Shown: positions 3,759 to 36,515 of the stretch, piece by piece
Numbering within the stretch: position 1 is the first letter of the stretch
Layout of the letters: each line of letters begins with the position of its first letter
Made by a program: the position numbers and the translations under genes
Notes under the pieces: generated by a model
What the model saw: only the letters and a program-made list of their open reading frames with translations
What the model was told of the DNA's origin: nothing
The model's database searches: none
Source of the DNA: Methanolinea sp.
GTDB taxonomy: Archaea; Halobacteriota; Methanomicrobia; Methanomicrobiales; Methanospirillaceae
Reading direction: 5' to 3'
Length of the DNA: 64,000 nt
Assembly (NCBI GenBank): GCA_018262855.1
Contig: JADFDO010000004.1
Location: forward strand, 124,001-188,000

Positions 3759-4517
3759 CTAATCGTTGTATTTTGCATAGAGCCGGTGGGCAACGAACTG
3801 GAAGATACTAAAGAAGACCACGAGCATCACCACATCAAAAAGAGGGAAAAAGAATGCCGTATGCCCGTAGGCCGCCTGGATCAGGTCATTGCCATACGTG
3901 AGCGGGGAGAGGTACGCAATCCACGCTCCTAGAGGCGGCATGGCATCGAGGGGTATGAATGTCCCGGAGACGAAGATGAGCGGAAGGCGAACGAGGTTGA
4001 GCATTGACATGATATCCCCGGGGCTCTCGGTCGGATACGCAGCAAAAAGGGTCCCCATTGTCGAGAACACTATTGCTGTAAGGAGCATTCCGACTATCAA
4101 GGCGAGTGGGAAGACGATGGTCGTTTTGAATGCAATGATTCCAACGATGAGCGGAACAAGTGCGATCCCGATACTGTAGAGAAAACCACTCAGGCTCTCA
4201 CCTATAACGATTGCATGGAGAGAGACCGGGGCCGAGAGCAACCGCTCAAAGGTCTTCGTTCTCCTCTCGATGGGGATGGAGACCGGCTCGATTGTTGAAG
4301 AAGAGAAGAGGAGTGTCACTGAGATGAGACCGGGGATCAGGTAGCCGAGCGGAACGTTCTTTCCCGCTGCAAACGCGAGGAACATGAAGAGGGGGAAGAG
4401 GAGACCAGAGACGATGATATTCGGCTTTAAGTAGTAGATAATCATGTCCTTCTTTGCGATCGCCCACGCTGCGACCGCTTCGGCGGTGAGCTGGTCTTTG
4501 TCGAACTCGGCATTCAT
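3759..4517 (-). CDS. ABC-2 type exporter, membrane subunit
   Basis: The 252-residue protein has a cytoplasmic N-terminal stretch and six hydrophobic segments, with the ABC-2 family hallmark around LVRLPLIFVSGTFIPLDAMP followed by LSPLTYGNDLIQAAY. ABC-2 permeases form the transmembrane half of drug, lipid or polysaccharide exporters. The start ATG overlaps the stop of the upstream ATPase gene by 4 bp (ATGA), so both are translated together and probably form one complex. The substrate cannot be read from sequence. Confidence 0.9.
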   Translation of the reverse strand: MNAEFDKDQLTAEAVAAWAIAKKDMIIYYLKPNIIVSGLLFPLFMFLAFAAGKNVPLGYLIPGLISVTLLFSSSTIEPVSIPIERRTKTFERLLSAPVSLHAIVIGESLSGFLYSIGIALVPLIVGIIAFKTTIVFPLALIVGMLLTAIVFSTMGTLFAAYPTESPGDIMSMLNLVRLPLIFVSGTFIPLDAMPPLGAWIAYLSPLTYGNDLIQAAYGHTAFFFPLFDVVMLVVFFSIFQFVAHRLYAKYND

Positions 4518-5467
4518 GGGAATCCGCCTTCCCTGTTCCGCCGCTCGATTCCGGTAAGCCGGATGAAGACATCCTCGAGCGTCGGCCCGAGGGTGGTCGC
4601 GCTGACCACACGGTTCTGGTGGGAATCCGCATACAACATGATTTCCCTTAAGAGCGCCCCGGGATCCTCTGTGTAGAGCCTGACCTTATCTCCGACCTTC
4701 CGGACTTCACTCACCATGGGGAGATTCTCCATGTCATCGAGTATCTTTGCGCTACCCTGCTCGAATGCCACCTCAACCGACTGGACGCTCTGGATGGTCT
4801 TTTTCAAACGCTCCGGTGAATCGATGGCGGCAATCCGGCCTCTGTTGATGATGGCAACGCGGTCACAGGCCAGGTTTGCTTCCTCGATATTATGAGTGGT
4901 CAGAAACACCGTCACCCCCTTCTCGGTCAGGGTCTGGAGCACATCCCTGATGATCAGGTTGCTCTGGACATCGAGGCCCGATGTCGGTTCGTCAAGGAAG
5001 AGGAGGCGTGGATCGTTGATCAGCCCCATCGCAAGGGTAAGACGGCGTTTCATCCCCTTCGAAAATCCCTTGACCCGGCTTGCACGCCGGTCCCAGAGGC
5101 CGAAGATCTCGAGAAGTTCTTTTCCGCGTTCCTCGCGATCTTGCTTCCCGACATGATAGAGCTCCCCGGCGAACATCATGTTCTGCCATGCGGTGATGTC
5201 ATCGTAGATGTTCGAGGTCTCATACACGATGCCCATCTGCTTCCGGGCCCTGATGGTATCCCTGACGATATCTCTCCCGAAGATGGAGGCAGATCCTCCT
5301 GTCGGGGTCGTAATTCCGGTCAGGATACGGATTGTGGTGGTCTTGCCGGCGCCGTTCGGCCCGAGGTAACCGAAGACTTCGCCTGTTTCAACGGAAAAAC
5401 TGACGTGGTCGAGAGCGAGGATCTCACCAAACCTCTTCTCTAAATCGGTCACCTCGATGGCATGCAT
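4514..5467 (-). CDS. ABC-2 type exporter, ATP-binding subunit
   Basis: A 317-residue ABC ATPase. Walker A is GPNGAGKTTT near residue 38, the signature motif is a degenerate variant (KGFSKGMKRR in place of LSGGQ) and Walker B is LLFLDEPTSGLD, followed by the switch His in TTHNIEEA. The C-terminal 90 residues after the ATPase core match the DrrA/CcmA type extension that docks on ABC-2 permeases. KGFSKG-type signatures are normal for this daunorubicin-resistance-like subfamily. First gene of a two-gene operon with the permease at 3759-4517. Confidence 0.92.
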   Translation of the reverse strand: MHAIEVTDLEKRFGEILALDHVSFSVETGEVFGYLGPNGAGKTTTIRILTGITTPTGGSASIFGRDIVRDTIRARKQMGIVYETSNIYDDITAWQNMMFAGELYHVGKQDREERGKELLEIFGLWDRRASRVKGFSKGMKRRLTLAMGLINDPRLLFLDEPTSGLDVQSNLIIRDVLQTLTEKGVTVFLTTHNIEEANLACDRVAIINRGRIAAIDSPERLKKTIQSVQSVEVAFEQGSAKILDDMENLPMVSEVRKVGDKVRLYTEDPGALLREIMLYADSHQNRVVSATTLGPTLEDVFIRLTGIERRNREGGFP

Positions 5468-5627
5468 GGAACAATCTCTTATGAAATACTTCCCAGTGTC
5501 AGTGATAAGAGAATGGACAAGATAAGAGTTTCACAGCGGGGATACTAGGAAGAGGAACATGCCGTAGATGAAGAGACCCCAATTTAAATCAAAAGGGATG
5601 AGAAATGAATTCTGGATCAGGCCTCTC

Positions 5628-6515
5628 TCACCCGACCACAGGGAGGCCCGGGCAATTGCAGTCGCTCACAAGGCCCGCGTCCATTCCCCTTTTAAACCAC
5701 GAGACTCGCTGAGCCGAGGACCCATGGGTGAAGCTGTCCGGCACGACGTATCCCTGGTACTGCATCTGGAGCGTGTCATCACCGACAGCACTTGCCGCGT
5801 TCATGGCTTCCTCGAGATCGCCTGATTCAAGGATCAGGTCATTGTACATGGCCTGCTTGGCCCATACACCGGCATAGCAGTCGGCCTGGAGCTCGAGTGC
5901 CACAGAGAGCTCGTTTGCATCTGCCTCGGAGAGGGAGCGTGTTTTCCTGTCAACGTACTCAATGGTCCCGAGGAGATTCTGAACGTGGTGCCCGATCTCG
6001 TGGGATATCACATAAGCCTGGGCGAAATCGCCGGGTGCGTGGTACTCTTGCTGCAGTGCATAAAAGAAATCGAGGTCGAGGTAAACCTTCTCATCAGCGG
6101 GGCAGTAGAATGGCCCCACTGCTGCGCTTGCCTGTCCACATGCTGAATCAACGTATCCAGTGTAGAGGACAAGTTTTGGTTCACGGTAGGTCTTCCCAAG
6201 TTGGTCCTCGAAGATCGTGGCCCAAGTGGTCTCCGTATCGCCAAGTACGAGTGCCACGTTGTCCGCAAGCTCATCCTGTTGTACGCTGGTGAGCTGGGAC
6301 TGGTATCCGGACGAATCCGAGGTATAGTCAGTTCCACCGATGATCTGTCCAGGGTCGACACCCATGGCCACCGCAAGGACAAGGACCAGGATGAGTCCGA
6401 GTCCCCCGATTCCAGTCGCTTTGCCCCCTGGAATCCCCGAAGATCTCCCCATGGAAATTCCCGAGGATCTCCGGTCCTCAATATTGGTACTCCGTCGCTC
6501 TGTCCGCCACCTCAT
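5628..6515 (-). CDS. YpfJ/KPN_02809-type neutral zinc metallopeptidase
   Basis: The protein (295 aa) has a basic N terminus, one membrane segment (residues about 38-52, GLGLILVLVLAVAMGV) and a large outer domain. The zinc protease motif HEIGHHVQN is present near residue 169, with the downstream glutamate region LQADCYAGVWA, where the Glu-Leu-Gln-Ala-Asp-Cys stretch is typical of this family. It contains the family's opening RRSxNIEDRR-like sequence. Expected to be a membrane-anchored peptidase facing outward. Monocistronic. Physiological substrate unknown. Confidence 0.88.
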   Translation of the reverse strand: MRWRTERRSTNIEDRRSSGISMGRSSGIPGGKATGIGGLGLILVLVLAVAMGVDPGQIIGGTDYTSDSSGYQSQLTSVQQDELADNVALVLGDTETTWATIFEDQLGKTYREPKLVLYTGYVDSACGQASAAVGPFYCPADEKVYLDLDFFYALQQEYHAPGDFAQAYVISHEIGHHVQNLLGTIEYVDRKTRSLSEADANELSVALELQADCYAGVWAKQAMYNDLILESGDLEEAMNAASAVGDDTLQMQYQGYVVPDSFTHGSSAQRVSWFKRGMDAGLVSDCNCPGLPVVG

Positions 6516-6798
6516 ATCTCAAGAACCCCCAATGAAATCACTGTCATGAATCCTGTAACTTCCTTCATGTTCCTGTCATGCTGGAAAGTCCCGTATTCGT
6601 TGCTGAAATTCTCCCCAGAATCCATCACACATGATCCCGTACCTTTCGAATGTGGAGGGTTCGGAAAAATACTTTCCGGAACAGTCATGGTGATCCTGAT
6701 CATGGTATTGGTCAGACGCAGCCAGAACCTGTGAAAGACTACATGCCGGGGATATCAACGTTGATGGTGGCAAAAAACAATGCATGTGTGGAAAAACC

Positions 6799-7512
6799 TC
6801 ACCAGTCCTTCTTCATCGCCTCTGCTTTCAATTTCTTCGGCATCAGTTCGATTGCATACCGGAGCGCTGTCCGGGGCATCTCCTTCTTGTGCGCAAGGAC
6901 AAACGAGAATACATCATCAGTATGTTTCCGGCTTGCTTCCTTGAGGAGCCACCCGTATCCTTTCTGAACCATATCGTCGCTGTCGGTCAGCAGAAGGGTG
7001 GCGATCTCCAGTGATTCATCGAGGAACCTGCCGTGTTTTGCCGGGATGATGAGGGAGACCGCGGCTGCCCTCCTCATCCAGCGGTTCTCCGACTTCGTCC
7101 ATCGTTTCAGCTCATCTATATATTCTGGATACGTATCGATGAAGTCGCCCATAGTATGGTTGCAGAATCCGTCGCAGGATGCCCAGTTGGTAATGTAAGT
7201 ATCGATCCACTGCCGGAACACTGCAATATCCTCTCGTTCATACCGTCCTGAGAGGCGGTAAGTCCACTCAGACACGATGAAGGACTCCTCCATGTATCCA
7301 GAGCGGTAGAGTTCCTCGCAGAGTGCGAAGATCTCCTGTTTGTCACGCAACTTGATCTCCTTCCAGTAGGTCTTTGCTATTGCAATGACCGTTGCCGTTC
7401 TCATCCCGTAGCATGAAATAGGCTCCTTGAAAAATCGCTGCGAGGTCTTTTGAATCTCGGGGTCGGCGTGGTTGTTGAGTTCCTGGCGGATGCTCTCGAT
7501 GACAGGATCCAT
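6799..7512 (-). CDS. AlkD-type DNA alkylation repair protein
   Basis: A 237-residue all-helical protein of the HEAT-like AlkC/AlkD DNA glycosylase superfamily, which removes positively charged alkylated bases. Visible marks are YGMRTATVIAIAKTYWKEIK near residue 35, the NWASCDGFCNHTMGDF block near residue 110 and the WMRRAAAVSLIIPAKHGR repeat near residue 145, ending with MVQKGYGWLLKEASRK. The Asp in the ASCDGF segment corresponds to the region of the catalytic-site Asp of AlkD. Length matches the family (220-240 aa). Stand-alone gene. Confidence 0.88.
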   Translation of the reverse strand: MDPVIESIRQELNNHADPEIQKTSQRFFKEPISCYGMRTATVIAIAKTYWKEIKLRDKQEIFALCEELYRSGYMEESFIVSEWTYRLSGRYEREDIAVFRQWIDTYITNWASCDGFCNHTMGDFIDTYPEYIDELKRWTKSENRWMRRAAAVSLIIPAKHGRFLDESLEIATLLLTDSDDMVQKGYGWLLKEASRKHTDDVFSFVLAHKKEMPRTALRYAIELMPKKLKAEAMKKDW

Positions 7513-13740: not shown

Positions 13741-14700
13741 GTGCATAGGGATAAGAATGAAGGAAGGGGTGATGCAATTATTTATCGATTTAGGATTTTC
13801 GTAGTTTTACTGCTGGCGCTGATGGTGTGTTCCATTGTGCTTGCAGATCATGCACCGACACAAACACCTGAGACCCAAGGGCTGGACACATTTACGAATG
13901 TTGTTGTGGCAGGTATCTCGACCGAGAGCGAAGAGATTGTCTGGCAGGAATCAAGCCGGGCGTTGAACGACCCGCCACTCTCAATGCCTGACACAGTTCA
14001 TATAACTGGAGCTTTCATCACATGGACCCACTTTCCAGGATTCCTCGCAGCCAGACCCGGTGAAACCCAGTATACCGTAAGCTATTCAGAAGAGACATTG
14101 GCTGAACAGGGTTTTACAAACTATCTCAAACAAAATTCTCTGGATACCAGAAATCAGCCAGCCAATCAGGATAACCTTGAAACTGATAAGGTGGTCGCGT
14201 TTGAAGGATCAATAACCGGAAGAATGACTTCTTCAGAGAGCATACTCGTTGATGGTGCAGGTCAGGTTGATATTTCAGAAGACAAATTCCTCTGTCCTTT
14301 TGCATCTGGTGACCAGCATCTGATAGCCCCCTACTGTAATATTGTCCAGATGGGATCGTCAGTGAATATTCAGGATGGACTCCTGCATACCTCATCAGGT
14401 GAGAGATCAATTACATCGACTGCCGATGTGCCCGTAGAAGCCGAATACCACATACAGCTTTCCGGGATTGGCCAATCGGCTGCAACAGGAAGTGCGAATG
14501 CCTACATGCAATCGCATTTCCAGGAAGGTCGGATGATTCTCACTGACCATGAAGACCTAGGGCCGGGATTCTATCTTGAAATCTACAGGCTTGGCCAGGC
14601 AGTTGACATCATCTATAACGAGGAGACCCGGGCAACGGGGGAGATCTCCTATTTCAAAAAGGATATGCAGTATGAATCAGGGATAAGGAGGACATCGTAA
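13741..14700 (+). CDS. exported protein of unknown function
   Basis: A protein of up to 319 residues with a hydrophobic signal segment (VVLLLALMVCSIVLADHA, about residues 20-38) and a polar, Ser/Thr/Glu-rich outer domain without membrane helices. The start is uncertain: GTG at 13741 is the only standard in-frame start before the signal peptide, but it overlaps a TATA-like element, so an unusual start further in cannot be excluded. It shares the phrase VVVAGI and a later SANAY-x-EG-I/M-D pattern with the next gene, which suggests a distant paralogue pair. Function not recognised. Confidence 0.7.
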   Translation: MHRDKNEGRGDAIIYRFRIFVVLLLALMVCSIVLADHAPTQTPETQGLDTFTNVVVAGISTESEEIVWQESSRALNDPPLSMPDTVHITGAFITWTHFPGFLAARPGETQYTVSYSEETLAEQGFTNYLKQNSLDTRNQPANQDNLETDKVVAFEGSITGRMTSSESILVDGAGQVDISEDKFLCPFASGDQHLIAPYCNIVQMGSSVNIQDGLLHTSSGERSITSTADVPVEAEYHIQLSGIGQSAATGSANAYMQSHFQEGRMILTDHEDLGPGFYLEIYRLGQAVDIIYNEETRATGEISYFKKDMQYESGIRRTS

Positions 14701-14747
14701 AAGATGCCTATTCTTATTCAGTTCCGACGAATGAATCAGGGGATTGG

Positions 14748-16127
14748 ATGAAGATTATTCGAAATTTGGGGGAAAAACCAATGAGTGTTCCAAGAATGGC
14801 ATTCTTATCGGCCATCTGTGTCATATGCATCTTCACTGGCACGGTTTCAGCCGAAGTTTATGATTTTGGATACAATTATGACAACGGGCAATACATAGGC
14901 CAGATCTCGCTGAATGAAGACGGTACCGTGAATAGCGTTGTAGTTGCCGGGATTGCCAACGGGGGCATGGAGGTCTGTCAAGGTACCTACGAATCTGAGG
15001 AGGGTGTCATCACCGGGCAGATGGGAGATATGGGGGGGGATTCCGGTTTCGCTGCCACGAAAGTGAATGACGGGAACGGAAATTCTGCTGGTAGTTTTGC
15101 ATCATTTACCGAAGGCTCGATGTACTTTGGCCAGGTTAGCGGTTTCGGTGATGCTGGTGTAGGTTCTACTGAGTCATTTGCGGTTGAGGGCGTTCCTACA
15201 GAGGTGGAAGAGTCAATGGTCTTTTCCGGACAAGTGGTCGGATCCTCTGATTTCTCAACCATTAATGCGTTATCCTATTCACATCTTGCAGATGGATCGT
15301 CCGCCGCGGTATATGCCCAGGCCCAGGGGACTGGCCAGCAGTATAACCTTGCCTCACAGGAAGCTTTTTCAGGATCTGATGAAGGCATAGGAAGCCTCTT
15401 TGGAGTTCTACAGGTTGCCTATGCACCATTTCATACCGGGTTCAAATCATATGGTGAGACAGAATCACCTTCACCCATATTCGCGGACTGGAGCTTCGCA
15501 ATTGCACGGGAATGGGTAGCAATGGTCAATGTCGAATCCGGCTCAGCAAGTGCATATGCTGTCGATCCTAATGGAAATTCTGCCACGCTGGAAACGTATG
15601 TCCAGGAAGGGACCATTATTGCGAATGATATCGAGGGCAGAGCAGGCCAGAGATCAATGTACCTTCCTACATACGAGGATATTCCTGAATATGGGGAAAT
15701 CGACATTGAAGAAAACGGTCTTACATCAAAAGCGGTCGCAAAGCACGACTGGATATTTGTCTACGGAGAGTCAGGAGGAATTCTCCTTGATACCGAGAAT
15801 TCTATCGGGAGCAGTGCATTCGTACATGCTGAATTTTCCAGCGATGAAGGAGGATACATACGTTCAGGATATGATTTCCCATCAAAGGCTGTTGCCGGGC
15901 AGTCTGAAAATTATTACAAAGTTCTGGCAAAGGATAATCCATATGCGAGCCTAAATGGCGATGGAAGTTATCTTCTTGAAACAGGTACTTCAGATGCATC
16001 TGGTATGAATTCAGATTATGCATCGAGAATAGATAAAACGGATAAACGTTTTATTGCCAAATCGGTTGGGATTACAGAAACAGATCCACCATATGACGAT
16101 TATCGGAGCAGAATTTGGAAACCATGA
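14748..16127 (+). CDS. exported acidic protein of unknown function, distant paralogue of the previous gene
   Basis: A 459-residue secreted protein: signal peptide (AFLSAICVICIFTGTVSA, about 17-35) then a Gly/Ser/Glu-rich region with many short beta-type motifs (YVQEGTIIANDIEG, YLPTYEDIPEYGEIDIEENG). No membrane anchor or sorting signal at the end. ATG 14748 is used; ATG 14781 directly before the hydrophobic core is an alternative. It follows the preceding exported protein by 47 bp on the same strand, so both may be cotranscribed and work together at the cell surface. I do not recognise the family. Confidence 0.72.
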   Translation: MKIIRNLGEKPMSVPRMAFLSAICVICIFTGTVSAEVYDFGYNYDNGQYIGQISLNEDGTVNSVVVAGIANGGMEVCQGTYESEEGVITGQMGDMGGDSGFAATKVNDGNGNSAGSFASFTEGSMYFGQVSGFGDAGVGSTESFAVEGVPTEVEESMVFSGQVVGSSDFSTINALSYSHLADGSSAAVYAQAQGTGQQYNLASQEAFSGSDEGIGSLFGVLQVAYAPFHTGFKSYGETESPSPIFADWSFAIAREWVAMVNVESGSASAYAVDPNGNSATLETYVQEGTIIANDIEGRAGQRSMYLPTYEDIPEYGEIDIEENGLTSKAVAKHDWIFVYGESGGILLDTENSIGSSAFVHAEFSSDEGGYIRSGYDFPSKAVAGQSENYYKVLAKDNPYASLNGDGSYLLETGTSDASGMNSDYASRIDKTDKRFIAKSVGITETDPPYDDYRSRIWKP

Positions 16128-16246: not shown

Positions 16247-16729
16247 ATGCTAGAATGTACGAGTCGCTGGCTCCTGGTGCTCGTGTTTGTATGCGGACTC
16301 CTGGCAGGATTCGGCCTTTATTCTCTGGTGGTTCCTGGCCAGTATACATCCGGAAAAGTGATCATCGAGACAAACGGTGCTCCGAAACCCATCGGGCCGT
16401 ATCACCAGGCGGTTCGAGATGGAGACCTTGTGTTCCTCTCAGGCCAGATCGGGCTTGATCCCGCAACCGGAAACCTTTCCGCGACCGTCGAGGAGCAGAC
16501 AAGAAGGGTGATGGAAAACCAGAAAGCAGTCCTCAAAGAGGCCGGTCTCGATTTTTCAGATGTGGTCCAGGCACGGATCTACCTTACCAACATGTCAGAC
16601 TGGAATACGATCAATGGGATATACGGTGAGTACTTTCATCAAACGTACCCTGCCCGGGCAACCGTGATGGTTGCAGGTCTGCCAAAGGATGCGAAGGTCG
16701 AGATCGAGATGATCGCAATTGCCCGCTGA
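16247..16729 (+). CDS. membrane-anchored RidA family protein
   Basis: The 160-residue protein begins with a hydrophobic helix (residues about 8-29, WLLVLVFVCGLLAGFGLYSLV) followed by a full RidA domain (about 35-160). Family marks are GAPKPIGPYHQAV, LVFLSGQIGLDPATGNL, the catalytic Arg in QARIYLTNM and the closing PARATVMVAGLPKDAKVEIE with the conserved Glu. RidA enzymes hydrolyse reactive enamines/imines from amino-acid metabolism and are normally cytosolic proteins of about 128 aa. An N-terminal anchor or signal peptide that would place the domain outside is unusual. Convergent with the GWCPN operon. Confidence 0.88.
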   Translation: MLECTSRWLLVLVFVCGLLAGFGLYSLVVPGQYTSGKVIIETNGAPKPIGPYHQAVRDGDLVFLSGQIGLDPATGNLSATVEEQTRRVMENQKAVLKEAGLDFSDVVQARIYLTNMSDWNTINGIYGEYFHQTYPARATVMVAGLPKDAKVEIEMIAIAR

Positions 16730-16775: not shown

Positions 16776-17390
16776 TCATCGAGGTTTTTTCCCGTACCGA
16801 GCCTGCTCGATCGCCCGCTTCAGTTCCTCCGCCTCATCGGTGCCGATACGGAACATCTTCCCGGAGAAGAGCGTGATCTCGACTGCCTTGAGGCCGGCAA
16901 TGTTATAGAGCGGACCAGTGGGTGTCCACCGGATACCCCAGCCATAGTACCAATGGTTGGTGACCGTTGTGACCGATGCGATCTCTGAGATCGGCCAGCT
17001 CTTCCTGATCAGGCGGATTGGCCCAAACCATAACCGCAGAGCATCCTGCTGCACCGATACTGTCAGGGTGGAGAACATCGCAAGCGCGAGGATCATAATC
17101 CCGGCCACAATGACCGTGATCCAGACGGGACCGAAGACGATCATGGATGCAATGATGATCAGGATCACAGCGGTGACCGCCGCGATGATAAGGGTCCCTC
17201 GCTGGGTATGCTCATACTCCCATCCCCATGGTTTTCCTGACCGGTCGGATCCCGCAGGTCCCTGGTTCTTCACCAGTCGATCACTCGCACCAAAAGCAGA
17301 CTGGGCATTGGCACGGGTCTTGATCGCCATCCGATTTTCATTCGGACACCACCCAATCTGCTTTCTTATAAAATCGAGAAGGAGTGTCAT
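16776..17390 (-). CDS. GWCPN-tag membrane protein E (2 TM + PH-like domain)
   Basis: A 204-residue protein. The N terminus is an amphipathic helix ending in the shared tag (FIRKQIGWCPN, residues 7-17), followed by a polar linker, two adjacent membrane helices (about 68-108, IIAAVTAVILIIIASMIVFG and VWITVIVAGIMILALAMF) and a C-terminal beta-rich domain resembling a bacterial PH-like module (WGIRWTPTGPLYNIAG, then KMFRIGTDEAEELKRAIEQA). It is a paralogue of protein C. Its ATG overlaps the stop of gene D by 4 bp. It is last in the operon. The tag recalls archaeal DUF1673 proteins from memory; unverified. Confidence 0.82.
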   Translation of the reverse strand: MTLLLDFIRKQIGWCPNENRMAIKTRANAQSAFGASDRLVKNQGPAGSDRSGKPWGWEYEHTQRGTLIIAAVTAVILIIIASMIVFGPVWITVIVAGIMILALAMFSTLTVSVQQDALRLWFGPIRLIRKSWPISEIASVTTVTNHWYYGWGIRWTPTGPLYNIAGLKAVEITLFSGKMFRIGTDEAEELKRAIEQARYGKKPR

Positions 17391-18130
17391 ACAGATCTCC
17401 CCAGCATTCCTGCTATCTCTTCAGGATTTTCTGTGTACATAACTACAACTTTCCTCGTTCCTGTCGTGATGAAGAGATAGCGGGGATAGCGGGATCGGAT
17501 GCGGGAACGGTAGTAGCTCACGAGGAATAACAGGACAATGCAAAGATAAAAACCAAGGGATGTTATGAACGAGGAAGAGGCGATCTCGCCCGACACGAAC
17601 TGCATGTATTCATACGAGAGGATATATGCTGTAGAGACCGGGATCAGGAATAAGAACAGTATCCCCTGGAGCCAGGCAGGCATGGGAGGCCTATTGTCCC
17701 TTATCTCCACTGAATCAATCTCCTCTTTTTGAATCACGACCGGCCAGGACAGAGCCCTGCGGATCACGAGGGTGCCCCGGGTAATTTCCAGTCTTGCTCC
17801 CCTGAGGTCCCTGGCGAGGATCACAAGTACGACCGGGAGAAGGAGACCGCACATCAGGATGCCGGACGTAACACGAAACGTCGCGAACGGGAGAATGAGA
17901 GAGAAGATCACTACGATGCTGATGGCTCCGGCGACCAGGCCAACAAAAATCGGCAGGGAAATCCCGGTCCTGCCGTAATCGATGAGAATCCCGTCATTTA
18001 TAAATGTATCTTCTGTCGGCAGAGGATTGAATTCAAGACCGTCCCATGGAGTACGGTTCCTTACGTGGGCCATCCTGTAACCGTTCGGGCACCACCCCAT
18101 ATACTTCCTGAATGAATCAATAAAGGGCAT
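17387..18130 (-). CDS. GWCPN-tag membrane protein D (4 TM)
   Basis: A 247-residue protein that opens MPFIDSFRKYMGWCPN. After a 40-residue linker come two membrane helices (FVGLVAGAISIVVIFSLILP, GILMCGLLLPVVLVIL), a PH-like strand block (ARLEITRGTLVIRRALSWPVVIQ), two further helices and a closing strand-helix segment (YLFITTGTRKVVVMYTENPEE). The start at 18130 is preferred over an upstream ATG at 18148 because GGAGG lies nine bases before it and because it aligns with its paralogues. It overlaps gene C by 14 bp, the same overlap as seen at two other junctions. Confidence 0.82.
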   Translation of the reverse strand: MPFIDSFRKYMGWCPNGYRMAHVRNRTPWDGLEFNPLPTEDTFINDGILIDYGRTGISLPIFVGLVAGAISIVVIFSLILPFATFRVTSGILMCGLLLPVVLVILARDLRGARLEITRGTLVIRRALSWPVVIQKEEIDSVEIRDNRPPMPAWLQGILFLFLIPVSTAYILSYEYMQFVSGEIASSSFITSLGFYLCIVLLFLVSYYRSRIRSRYPRYLFITTGTRKVVVMYTENPEEIAGMLGRSV

Positions 18131-18716
18131 GGTTGATTGCCTCCGCAAGTGTTACCGGTTCATCGGTACCGATCCGGATCTTCTTCCCGTTCATGAACAC
18201 GATCTCCACCGCATTAGGCCCGGCCACATTATACAGCCACCCGTGCGGTGTCCATCGTATTCCCCACCCGTACCACCATAAATTTTTCACCACTTGACAC
18301 CCCACAATCTTTGCGAGCAGGAATTTCCTGTGCCAGACCTTCATCCCGAACCAGAACTCAAGCAGATCACCGGAGATTGCGACGGTGAGTGATGAGAAGA
18401 GTGCATTGACGAGTGCAAGGAGGGCGAGAATCATGAAAACCGGTATGAGTAGTACGGGCACCACTCCAATCATGACCGCAGAGAAGATAACGAGAGCATA
18501 TATGGCAAGAAGGTAGGTTGTCTTTCTCCCACCTGCGAGATTCGGCTGGGTGTGATAATACCGGTATTGAATGGTACCAACCCCGGGAACCGGTACCTGA
18601 TTGCCTGGAATAGACAAGTTTGATACGTGTATCTCTCCAGGAGGGTATACGCGGTTCATAGGGTGAACGTTCGGGCACCAACCAAGGTGTTCTCTCAATA
18701 CATCAACGAGGTGAAT
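18117..18716 (-). CDS. GWCPN-tag membrane protein C (2 TM + PH-like domain), probable ATT start
   Basis: A 199-residue protein, paralogue of E: tag LGWCPN, a linker, two membrane helices (TYLLAIYALVIFSAVMIGVV, LLIPVFMILALLALVNALF) and the PH-like end (YGWGIRWTPHGWLYNVAG, KKIRIGTDEPVTLAEAI). The frame has no ATG or GTG before the tag. A TTG at 18698 exists, but the strong AAGGAGGG site lies five bases before an ATT at 18714-18716, exactly where the paralogous gene B has ATG. Using ATT also restores the FID-like opening (IHLVDVLREHLGWCPN) and the 14-bp overlap with the upstream gene. I therefore place the start at ATT. Confidence 0.78.
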   Translation of the reverse strand: MHLVDVLREHLGWCPNVHPMNRVYPPGEIHVSNLSIPGNQVPVPGVGTIQYRYYHTQPNLAGGRKTTYLLAIYALVIFSAVMIGVVPVLLIPVFMILALLALVNALFSSLTVAISGDLLEFWFGMKVWHRKFLLAKIVGCQVVKNLWWYGWGIRWTPHGWLYNVAGPNAVEIVFMNGKKIRIGTDEPVTLAEAINHALY

Positions 18717-19314
18717 GATTACCCTCCTTCTCTAAACCTAGAATCTGGCCGTCGTAGTGTAATTTTCGATGTGTCCCGGATTCCCATTTCCAGATGCTGA
18801 CAAGCATCCCGATGAACGATATGGAAATGAATCCACCAAAGAACGCGGTTATCATCTCCAGGCTGACGCCTGGAATCCTGCCAATGAGGACGAGTGCCCA
18901 TATACACAGAGATGCGGCAACAGTGACTCCCGTGATTATCCACCAGGTTTTGTCAAAGCGGTTCCAGAGCACCACAGGGCCGACAGACAGGATCTCATTG
19001 AAAATTCTCCAGTACAAGAACCCGACAGCCGCGGATAAGGGCATTCCTGCGAGGATGCCAGCCAGAAAAAGAATCGAGTGGGATACACCCCCAAGACCGG
19101 CATAGATGAAAACGCCTGCACACACTGTCCCGATGGTTTGCAGGAGGATCTGATTTTGGAACAGGCCGATCCAGTGAAGTGCACGATCTTGAAACGATCC
19201 GCTTCCAGGTGGGACAACGGCATCCCTCACTCTATCTATTTCGGCCAGGCGTATCTGTGCTTCTACATTCGGGCACCAGCCCAGATATTTCCTGCATGCA
19301 TCAATAAAGTGCAT
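18703..19314 (-). CDS. GWCPN-tag membrane protein B (4 TM)
   Basis: A 203-residue protein opening MHFIDACRKYLGWCPN. A polar linker follows, then four membrane helices (FQNQILLQTIGTVCAGVFIY onward, the last around FFGGFISISFIGMLVSIWKW), and a short cytoplasmic tail ending KEGNHSPR. It is a clear paralogue of A, sharing the NQIL-QTIGT, ILAG-P-SA--GF-YWRIFNE and GGFIS-SF-GM-VS-WKWE blocks. The ATG at 19314 with AAGGAGGG is used; the longer frame upstream overlaps gene A deeply and is rejected. It overlaps A by 14 bp, with the ribosome site encoded by the last codons of A. Confidence 0.84.
   Translation of the reverse strand: MHFIDACRKYLGWCPNVEAQIRLAEIDRVRDAVVPPGSGSFQDRALHWIGLFQNQILLQTIGTVCAGVFIYAGLGGVSHSILFLAGILAGMPLSAAVGFLYWRIFNEILSVGPVVLWNRFDKTWWIITGVTVAASLCIWALVLIGRIPGVSLEMITAFFGGFISISFIGMLVSIWKWESGTHRKLHYDGQILGLEKEGNHSPR
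18714..18729 (-). promoter_or_regulatory. ribosome-binding site that decides an ATT start
   Basis: On the minus strand AAGGAGGG (18722-18729) is followed by TAATC and then ATT (18714-18716). The start of gene B reads AAGGAGGG (19320-19327), TAATC, ATG (19312-19314), identical over 13 bases up to the start codon. The nearest standard start, TTG at 18698, would be 23 bases from the ribosome site. Confidence 0.65.
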
Positions 19315-19918
19315 GATTACCCTCCTTCCCCAATTCGAGTACAAGACCGTCATAATGCAACTGGCGTTGAGTATCCGCCTCCCATTTCCATACACTGACG
19401 AACATCCCCATGAACGACACCGAAATGAATCCTCCCATGAATGCGTTGGTAATAGTCGCATCAAACCAGGGGGTCAGGCCGGTCAGAAAATAGACCTGTG
19501 CATACATGATTACCAAAACACTTACAACCACAAGGATTGATGATGCGATAGAGAACTGATACCTGAGTACCACAGGGCCTTTGTGAAAAACCTCGTTGAA
19601 TATCCTCCAGTACCAGAATCCGTAAATCGCCGAGAATGGCAGACCTGTAAGAATGCCGAAAAGGAAAAGATCCGGGTGAATTACCCCTCCAAGACTGAAA
19701 AAAAGATACAAGCCTAAACATAGCGTTCCTATGGTCTGTACTAATATCTGGTTGTGGAAAAGCCATAGCCATTGAGCAATCCGGGATTTATACAATCCAC
19801 CCTCCGGGGGGATAACGCTATTCTCCTCTCTGCATAGTCCGATTCGATGAGATTCTGCATGTACATTCGGGCACCAGCCAAGCCATCTGCCGATGGTGTC
19901 AGATACCTGTCCCGTCAT
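19301..19918 (-). CDS. GWCPN-tag membrane protein A (4 TM)
   Basis: A 205-residue protein opening MTGQVSDTIGRWLGWCPN, followed by a linker, four membrane helices (first FHNQILVQTIGTLCLGLYLF, last AFMGGFISVSFMGMFVSVWKW) and a tail ending KEGNHALY. Closest relative in the window is B. The ATG at 19918 overlaps the regulator stop as ATGA, so the first membrane gene is translationally coupled to its regulator. The longer frame beginning at 20056 lies inside the regulator gene and is rejected. Role unknown; the common tag suggests that A to E meet one partner or assemble together. Confidence 0.84.
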   Translation of the reverse strand: MTGQVSDTIGRWLGWCPNVHAESHRIGLCREENSVIPPEGGLYKSRIAQWLWLFHNQILVQTIGTLCLGLYLFFSLGGVIHPDLFLFGILTGLPFSAIYGFWYWRIFNEVFHKGPVVLRYQFSIASSILVVVSVLVIMYAQVYFLTGLTPWFDATITNAFMGGFISVSFMGMFVSVWKWEADTQRQLHYDGLVLELGKEGNHALY

Positions 19919-20361
19919 GCCATCCCCTTCACTTTTGTAAACAGTTCGTCTGCCATCTTTGTCGGGTCTGCGGTCTTCTCGATTTTTATCCCCATCTCGT
20001 TCGCGTAATCCCAGAGGAGCTCGATACATTCGATATATCGCGGGCATATCCCGCAATTGCCTTCATGTTCGTACCAGACCTGCATGCCGTGCTTCTCTGA
20101 TACGAAGATGATTGCAGCAGTCTGGAACGGGATCGACCTGCCGAGGAGGATTCCCCGTTCGGTATTGACCCGCTCGATCGCGATCTGGTTCGCGTTCGCC
20201 ATCTCCCGGAGTGCCGCGCCAACCTTCTCGTCCATTGCAAGAAGTGCCCGCGAAACTGCCTGACGGGAGATGCCGAGTTCCTGGGCTATGGTGATATTGG
20301 GTAACCCCTTCCGGCGCATCGCCCAGAACCCGAACTGCTTCTCATGGGTTGGCAGGAGCAT
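19915..20361 (-). CDS. HTH transcriptional regulator with C-terminal cysteine motif, first gene of the GWCPN operon
   Basis: A 148-residue protein. Residues about 6-45 form a helix-turn-helix (FGFWAMRRKGLPNITIAQEL, GISRQAVSRALLAMDEKV). A middle alpha/beta part contains TERGILLGRSIPFQTAAIIF, and the end holds CGICPRYIEC, three cysteines (C-x2-C-x5-C) that could bind a metal or sense redox state. A perfect palindrome overlaps the region between the TATA element and the start codon, so the protein probably represses its own operon. Similar regulators precede GWCPN-type genes in other methanogens as far as I recall; this should be checked. Confidence 0.82.
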   Translation of the reverse strand: MLLPTHEKQFGFWAMRRKGLPNITIAQELGISRQAVSRALLAMDEKVGAALREMANANQIAIERVNTERGILLGRSIPFQTAAIIFVSEKHGMQVWYEHEGNCGICPRYIECIELLWDYANEMGIKIEKTADPTKMADELFTKVKGMA

Positions 20362-20363
20362 GT

Positions 20364-20391
20364 GTCAACATTTGCATGTTGACTATAAAAG
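20364..20391 (-). promoter_or_regulatory. leaderless promoter with perfect palindromic operator for the GWCPN operon
   Basis: GTCAACAT (20364-20371) and ATGTTGAC (20376-20383) are exact inverted copies separated by TTGC. On the minus strand TTTTATAG (20384-20391) lies immediately upstream and its centre is about 26 bases from the A of the start codon at 20361, so transcription should begin at or next to the ATG. A protein on the palindrome would block the transcription start. Confidence 0.7.
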
Positions 20392-35344: not shown

Positions 35345-35660
35345 CTCATACTCATGAACCGATCAGGCAATGGAAGAGAGAGAAATCCTGGATAATCTTA
35401 AAAAAATCAGGAATGCTATCACACACTATTCTTTTGCCACCTTGTGATATGCTGATGTTCTGAGTCTTCCATGTAATAATGTAATTTATATAAATTAAAC
35501 TTTGCTTCAAATTGCTGTTTAATCTCCCTATTCTTTCGCTGAATCAATAAAAATGAGCAATATCAGGATTCAAGATTCATGACCTGGAGGATTCGATCCC
35601 GTCATGGTATCGTCTATTGGGTGGCAATATTCATCTCCCACTGTAGCAAATCCAGATGGC
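35345..35660. promoter_or_regulatory. 316-bp intergenic region with a symmetric TATA element
   Basis: The region separates the divergent beta-helix and DUF6159-like genes. AATTTATATAAATT (35483-35496) is a perfect 14-bp palindrome containing a TATA box that could work in either direction; for the minus strand a second AT-rich element near 35396-35410 is closer to the start. No gene was found. Confidence 0.45.
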
Positions 35661-36515
35661 ATGTTTGAACGCATTCGCCGAAGTATCGACCTTGTCAGGG
35701 CAAGCTGGAGGATCCTCATGAGCGAAAAGAAACTCCTTGTCTTTCCACTCCTTTCAGGGATCATCACACTTTTCGTGATAGCGACCTTCATCCTCCCGCT
35801 CATCTTTACAGGCGGTGCTTTCTCTCTCGCAACCAATTCGATCGAGGGCATCATCCTTCTCTTCCTGTTCTACCTCGTTACCTCCTTTGTCGTGATCTTC
35901 TTCAATGTCGGCCTCATCTCGTGTGTTTATGCCCGCCTGGAGGGAAAGGAGATGACCATCGGCGAAGGGCTTCACGCAGCATCACGCAATTTCCAGGCAA
36001 TCCTTGTATGGGCAGTTATTTCTGCGACGGTCGGACTGGTTCTCAGGATGATAGAGGATAGGGCGGGTGCCGCGGGCGGGATTGCAACTGCACTCGTCGG
36101 TGGAGCATGGAGTCTCGTGACCTTCTTCGTGGTCCCGGTCTTTGTCTTCGAAGGAAAGGGGGTGGTTGATGCGATCAGGGAGTCATGGACACTCTTCCGG
36201 AAAACCTGGGGGGAGAGTGTGGTGGGAACAGTCTCGATCACATTCGTGTTCGTGGCTATCGGGATTATCGCCTTCATACTCGTCTTTGCCACCCTGTTCC
36301 TGGGAAATCTTATCGTATTTATCTCGGCTCTTGCGCTTTTCATTCTCTTTATCGCAATTCTTGCAATCATGGCATCGGCGATGCAGGGGATTTTTATTGC
36401 GGTCCTCTACAGGTATGCCCGGACGGGTGATGTGCCCGGGGGGTTTGACCCAACCCTTCTCTCCGGTGCATTTACCCAGTCACAGTCACTGCAGTTCAGG
36501 CCGGGAAATATCTGA
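35661..36515 (+). CDS. DUF6159-like integral membrane protein
   Basis: A 284-residue protein with five to six membrane helices. The cytoplasmic N terminus MFERIRRSIDLVRASWRILM and the middle segments GEGLHAASRNFQAILVWAVI and VFEGKGVVDAIRESWTLFRK are the pattern of the DUF6159 family, polytopic proteins of unknown function. Start at ATG 35661 is favoured; an in-frame ATG at 35604 would add 19 polar residues. Monocistronic. No activity can be named. Confidence 0.75.
   Translation: MFERIRRSIDLVRASWRILMSEKKLLVFPLLSGIITLFVIATFILPLIFTGGAFSLATNSIEGIILLFLFYLVTSFVVIFFNVGLISCVYARLEGKEMTIGEGLHAASRNFQAILVWAVISATVGLVLRMIEDRAGAAGGIATALVGGAWSLVTFFVVPVFVFEGKGVVDAIRESWTLFRKTWGESVVGTVSITFVFVAIGIIAFILVFATLFLGNLIVFISALALFILFIAILAIMASAMQGIFIAVLYRYARTGDVPGGFDPTLLSGAFTQSQSLQFRPGNI

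Follow-up and report, generated by a model that had tools for sequence, protein, structure and literature searches.

Why should five membrane proteins of dissimilar build, encoded one after another in an archaeal operon, all begin with a short helix that ends in the same five residues, GWCPN? The question is raised by a stretch of 64,000 nucleotides from Methanolinea sp. (assembly GCA_018262855.1, contig JADFDO010000004.1, positions 124,001 to 188,000; hereafter the window, whose numbering is used for its features), in which the gene of a helix-turn-helix (HTH) regulator, here called REG, is followed by five genes, A to E, for proteins carrying this tag. A preliminary description of the same DNA had proposed a common docking, sorting or assembly step. 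Our analysis favours docking; the covariation reported below speaks for the regulator of the operon itself as partner, and against a general machinery of sorting or assembly. At a probability of roughly 55%, the locus is a self-regulating membrane-protein operon in which REG acts as autorepressor and the tag as its docking site, resembling the SdpI/SdpR pair of Bacillus; the membrane proteins would then probably control their own production by binding the regulator.

One tag on unrelated membrane proteins

All six open reading frames (ORFs) are carried by the minus strand, in the order REG (19915-20361), A (19301-19918), B (18703-19314), C (18117-18716), D (17387-18130) and E (16776-17390), with overlaps of 4 bp at REG/A and D/E and of 14 bp at A/B, B/C and C/D, in full agreement with the preliminary description. 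The (M)GWCP motif is present near the N-terminus of five out of five membrane proteins, GWCPN lying inside residues 12-18 of each (minus-strand positions 19865-19879 in A, 19267-19281 in B, 18669-18683 in C, 18083-18097 in D and 17340-17354 in E), and loop charges predict a cytosolic location for it. The differing architectures were confirmed as well: A and B have four transmembrane (TM) helices, C and E two TM helices and a PH-like domain, and D four TM helices and PH-like strands.

In the 2.29 Mb genome to which the window belongs, the five segments of A to E are the only 15-mers that encode GWCPN. Twelve whole genomes together contained 49 such 15-mers, 47 of them in known clusters and 48 in regulator-linked loci; one of the remaining two stands behind a second regulator copy, in a polysaccharide flippase gene, and the other has no tagged ORF. 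This second copy and the tagged flippase gene following it occupy positions 4384-6946 of locus L179, from a Methanosarcina-type genome. Unlike membrane proteins bearing the tag beside the same regulator, for which a search had been suggested with the first description, were found in many genera. DUF1673, a family to which several tagged proteins belong, occurs in 55/393 genomes of a phylum sample and the regulator in 43/295 genomes of an overlapping one, while a scan with the regulator alignment gave 79 loci, including Methanolinea, Methanoregula, Methanospirillum, Methanoculleus, Methanosarcina, Methanoperedens and ANME-2. The same regulator stands at the head of such operons throughout Methanomicrobiales, Methanosarcina, Methanoperedens and ANME-2. 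All loci taken together comprise 130 regulator ORFs (111 distinct sequences, as some loci represent the same genome twice), and relatives of REG head 119 clusters with a recognised tagged protein, the number of tagged genes per cluster ranging from 1 to 12 with a median of 3.

Clustering at 60% identity leaves 174 of the 394 tagged proteins, and the parts behind the tag divide these into more than ten groups, although small C-terminal groups may be over-split. Pfam names among them are DUF1673, SdpI with DUF1648, DUF6159 and GPDPase_memb, Yip1, AglB-core-like and flippase, and the PH-like fold of E in the window also belongs to the tagged families. Starting from C-terminal profiles, a count that does not select on the tag and is therefore independent of it, the Cys tag was present in at least 359 of 400 linked members. 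Invariance of the cysteine over 115 tagged proteins was discarded as an argument because the selection itself had required a C.

Several variants were noted. In two proteins (L090, 11732-12520; L169, 15818-16435) the tag reads RWHP, with histidine for cysteine. Two regulator-linked copies (L080, 15343-16095; L084, 5912-6646) have GLVPE or GMVPM in place of the tag; here the tag DNA is probably read one base out of frame, and these would be frameshifted copies. One protein (L170, 9160-10158) contains two GWCP tags and is apparently a fusion of two tagged modules. The window itself encodes, at 35583-36515 on the plus strand, an untagged DUF6159 membrane protein homologous to a 6-TM tagged group of related operons.

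At the DNA level, 40-41 of 42 nt of the tag agree between certain neighbouring genes whose domains differ, and the similarity breaks off directly behind GWCP. Two genes of L081 whose C-terminal parts differ are identical for approximately 60 nt as far as the GWCP codons, past which they are unrelated; L072 presents a similar pattern. The tag can be transferred as a DNA cassette from one gene to its neighbour; this is shown for particular pairs only, because the mean codon identity of tags inside a locus is not above that of all pairs.

Joint switching of regulator, operator and tag

The 148-residue REG was modelled with AlphaFold2 (AF2) as an HTH, a long stem helix and an alpha/beta head, and the top fold match was EnfR (8hno, the 'eighth note' fold; Foldseek probability 0.87; VIA Z 7.8, over 61 residues only). 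On this model REG would be a Tfx/EnfR-type regulator, though its 20.2 bits against TIGR00721 (tfx) fall short of the curated NCBIfam cut-off of 60.25 and place it outside Tfx as so defined. Two of its parts matter below, namely the HTH recognition region (residues 24-41; 20239-20292, minus strand) and the Cys module CGICPRYIEC (C103, C106 and C112; 20026-20055, minus strand), whose C-x2-C-x5-C pattern, already pointed out in the preliminary description, is invariant across 20 aligned relatives. No relative of REG was found on viral contigs. Broken regulator remnants were seen in two genomes (G169, L052/L058; G193, L053/L059) that are not listed with DUF1673 matches, which suggests that the whole locus was lost there.

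Just upstream of REG lies the palindrome GTCAACAT-GCAA-ATGTTGAC (complete sequence GTCAACATGCAAATGTTGAC, 20364-20383), which ends 2 nt before the start codon and is directly abutted by a TATA-like element, TTTTATA (20384-20390, minus strand); the transcript of the window operon is likely leaderless. With at most one mismatch allowed, the pattern GTMAAY-N8-RTTKAC was detected 2 or 3 nt before the start codon in 110/110 regulator promoters examined, as compared with 0.3% of shuffled sequences, and a TATA-like element lies directly upstream of it in 105/110. This operator is of the type GTCAAC-N8-GTTGAC. The exact pattern occurs at a single site in the genome of the window, at REG. Of the 18 exact sites in 22 other genomes, 15 directly adjoin a REG gene and another is 179 bp away from one of these; in five congeners that lack REG there is none. 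The position of the operator between TATA and start codon suggests autorepression. Scans for bacterial promoters and terminators yielded nothing above chance.

Regulator, operator and tag differ jointly between two classes of loci. The class-2 regulators, found in some Methanoregulaceae, form one paralog clade of 15 sequences (support 100/99), with the recognition helix ITRQGVSQ (S32T, A35G, R38Q), the Cys module C-x2-C-[DN]-E (R108E, L115F, L116I and D/N at 107) and, outside both regions, I84Y and F141L. Their operators are of the type GTAAAT-N8-ATTTAC, the pattern used for this class after TGTAAA-N8-TTTACA had proved too narrow. Class-2 tags read GLC(R/P), often GLCRKPP, in 28/28 cases, as against W tags in 306/307 of class 1, and are spread over three C-terminal groups; the switch adds basic residues to the tag and acidic ones next to the regulator cysteines. 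Within class 1, tag distance is correlated with that of the REG C-terminal domain when the HTH is held constant (partial r 0.24, p 0.001). Four contigs (L118, L123, L134 and L137) carry both classes approximately 4 kb apart. As a general machine would serve both classes, their coexistence side by side indicates that the partner of the tag should be locus-specific, and REG, being the only constant locus-specific protein, is the candidate.

A proposed circuit and its alternatives

Based on these observations, we propose that REG, probably as a dimer, would occupy the palindrome that separates the TATA box from the start of its own, leaderless operon, and so block this operon. The products would be unrelated membrane proteins, in a set that varies between loci, all carrying the same cytosolic helix and G-W-C-P tag, and the tag would dock onto the Cys module of REG. 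In the appropriate state of these proteins, with an extracellular agent bound or under envelope stress, the tags would keep REG at the membrane and thereby relieve repression of the operon, in the way that SdpI acts on the autorepressor SdpR in Bacillus. Acquisition of a tag would be enough to bring any membrane protein into the circuit, which would explain the domain swapping. We give about even odds to the more general proposition that a portable tag makes any membrane protein a receptor for one dedicated transcription factor, docking the repressor at the membrane (its cysteine perhaps a fourth ligand beside the regulator's three), and that operator, repressor and tag evolve as orthogonal, insulated sets. 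If true, archaea would possess a modular form of transmembrane signalling, with a swappable peptide connecting unrelated membrane proteins to one repressor. DUF1673 and allied 'dark matter' genes of methane-cycling archaea would then gain a first function, and both experiments and synthetic biology would have natural orthogonal sets of repressor, operator and tag at their disposal.

A number of results weigh against such a circuit. Approximately 10% of linked family members are without a detected Cys tag, many of them being fragments, frameshifts or starts outside the scan, and one GLCP tag stands behind a class-1 regulator (L094). The class-2 regulators constitute a single clade and hence one switch in the regulator tree, so that a contingency p-value for the class contrast is not phylogenetically independent and the covariation of tag, regulator and operator, as one unreplicated event, is suggestive. 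Tag distance is also correlated with the HTH when the C-terminal domain is held constant (partial r 0.14, p 0.003), and shared ancestry is therefore not fully removed. An AF2 co-fold of regulator and tag, for which the in-frame read-through fusion of L169 was used as a computational device only, left the tag disordered (predicted local distance difference test score, pLDDT, <50) and undocked, a result more uninformative than negative. Finally, no toxin, ligand gene or metal was identified.

The tag could instead be an element of assembly or oligomerisation, the N-terminal helices bundling the tagged proteins of one operon, possibly around a metal shared via their cysteines, with REG merely the switch of the operon. 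Such a role would accord with the co-evolution of tags within a locus (class-2 loci are all GLC), with the overlapping multi-gene operons and with the two tags in one protein of L170. However, 31 of the 119 clusters, some of them cut by contig ends, have one recognised tagged protein only, and the tag tracks residues of the regulator's Cys module, which assembly alone does not predict. Likewise, the stoichiometric synthesis that had been surmised from the gene overlaps is only partly borne out: the overlaps are real, but a copy number of 1 to 12 and the free swapping of families argue against a complex of fixed stoichiometry. We consider assembly unlikely. Direct sensing of metal or redox state by the REG cysteines, with REG simply co-regulating an envelope operon and the tag cysteine answering the same stress independently, is rather improbable; it would fit the invariant CxxCx5C, the near-invariant tag cysteine and the change from cysteine to histidine in L090 and L169, but it leaves unexplained both the joint switch of the tag with residues around the cysteines and the confinement of the tag to this operon.

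A short N-terminal helix with one near-invariant cysteine, in the position of a sorting signal, also brings to mind sorting, insertion or lipid modification by a general cell machine. We rejected this explanation, to which we give a slim chance, on the grounds that adjacent operons of one genome hold two tag classes; in addition, tags occur almost only behind REG, the second tag of the L170 protein is internal, the DUF6159 homolog in the window does without a tag, and the proteins already possess several TM helices. Least probable, and very much so, is mere common ancestry, by which the C-terminal parts would be one fast-evolving DUF1673 family diverged beyond recognition and the tag would be kept by generic constraint or gene conversion. 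DUF1673 matches in 60/115 members, some of them extending across tag and TM regions, and the possible over-splitting of some small groups would be in line with it, but each of SdpI, Yip1, polysaccharide flippase and the PH-like fold is a family in its own right, with separate matches, and the DNA identity of some neighbours ends right after the tag.

Individual genes and known systems

Against the curated PF07895 (DUF1673) cut-off of 30.4 bits, only A (36.0) and D (32.5) score above, which bears out DUF1673 as the possible match named in the preliminary description; E (28.6) and B (21.1) score below, B sharing the C-terminal group of A, and C has no match to this model. BLAST aligned C and E over their full length (38% identity); in comparisons of A with E and of A with D it found nothing convincing except the tag. 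The AF2 model of E comprises two TM helices and a PH/PTB-like domain (Foldseek probability 1.00). Gene C is without an ATG at its first codon, which is ATT (18714-18716), the nearest standard start being TTG (18696-18698); this ATT corresponds to an ATG at the A/B junction (GGAGGGTAATCATT versus GGAGGGTAATCATG) and may be a rare start codon, a recent mutation or an assembly error. None of ten proteins matched the PADLOC anti-phage defence models. Convergent to the operon on the plus strand is, by eye, the gene of a RidA-like protein with an N-terminal hydrophobic segment (16247-16729), and beyond it lie two adjacent genes (13741-16127, plus strand) for secreted-looking proteins of similar style.

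EnfR of the Tfx/EnfR family binds a pseudo-palindrome at its target promoter (PMC10570040), and the modelled REG has the corresponding HTH, long stem helix and alpha/beta head; it differs in an extra strand, the CxxCx5C module and its low tfx score. SdpI of Bacillus, both immunity protein and receptor, keeps its autorepressor SdpR sequestered at the membrane (PMC1626106). As in B. subtilis, an autorepressor, here a predicted one, and polytopic membrane proteins share an operon (PMC1626106, PMC6818787), related operons have tagged SdpI-family (SdpI/DUF1648) proteins in the equivalent position, and membrane sequestration is proposed here by analogy. The window operon contains no SdpI-family membrane protein. 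Unlike SdpR, REG is Tfx-like, many unrelated membrane proteins have a common portable tag, and no cognate toxin was found.

The sigma-W genes of Bacillus offer a further likeness, in that the SdpI and Yip1 families recur in tagged loci and the PH-like membrane proteins are an analogue of YdbST, which is assigned to bPH; the regulator is another one, and to our knowledge no tag is known from sigma-W proteins. In Bacillus, YfhL (an SdpI paralog), YknWXYZ (with the Yip1 protein YknW) and YdbST all confer protection against antimicrobial peptides (PMC8144471, PMC4887032), and this protection, together with the SdpI/SdpR precedent, favours a putative role of the archaeal operons in envelope protection.

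DUF1673 (PF07895, arCOG06827) was described in 2014 as a 'membrane protein expansion in Methanosarcina, MGWCP motif' (PMC4158269) and forms supercluster SC.00027 (PMC4390880). A full-text literature search found the MGWCP motif named in no paper besides those on DUF1673. The window proteins resemble the family in their PF07895 matches, clear in A and D and weak in B and E, in the tag itself and in tandem expansion. The accessible text of the two papers treats DUF1673 as one membrane family of unknown function and mentions neither a regulator linked to it nor an operator, and likewise no tags on unrelated families, no classes of tag and no transfer of tag cassettes; measured against that text, the linked regulator, the unrelated tagged families, the operator and the switch of tag class are new findings of the present analysis.

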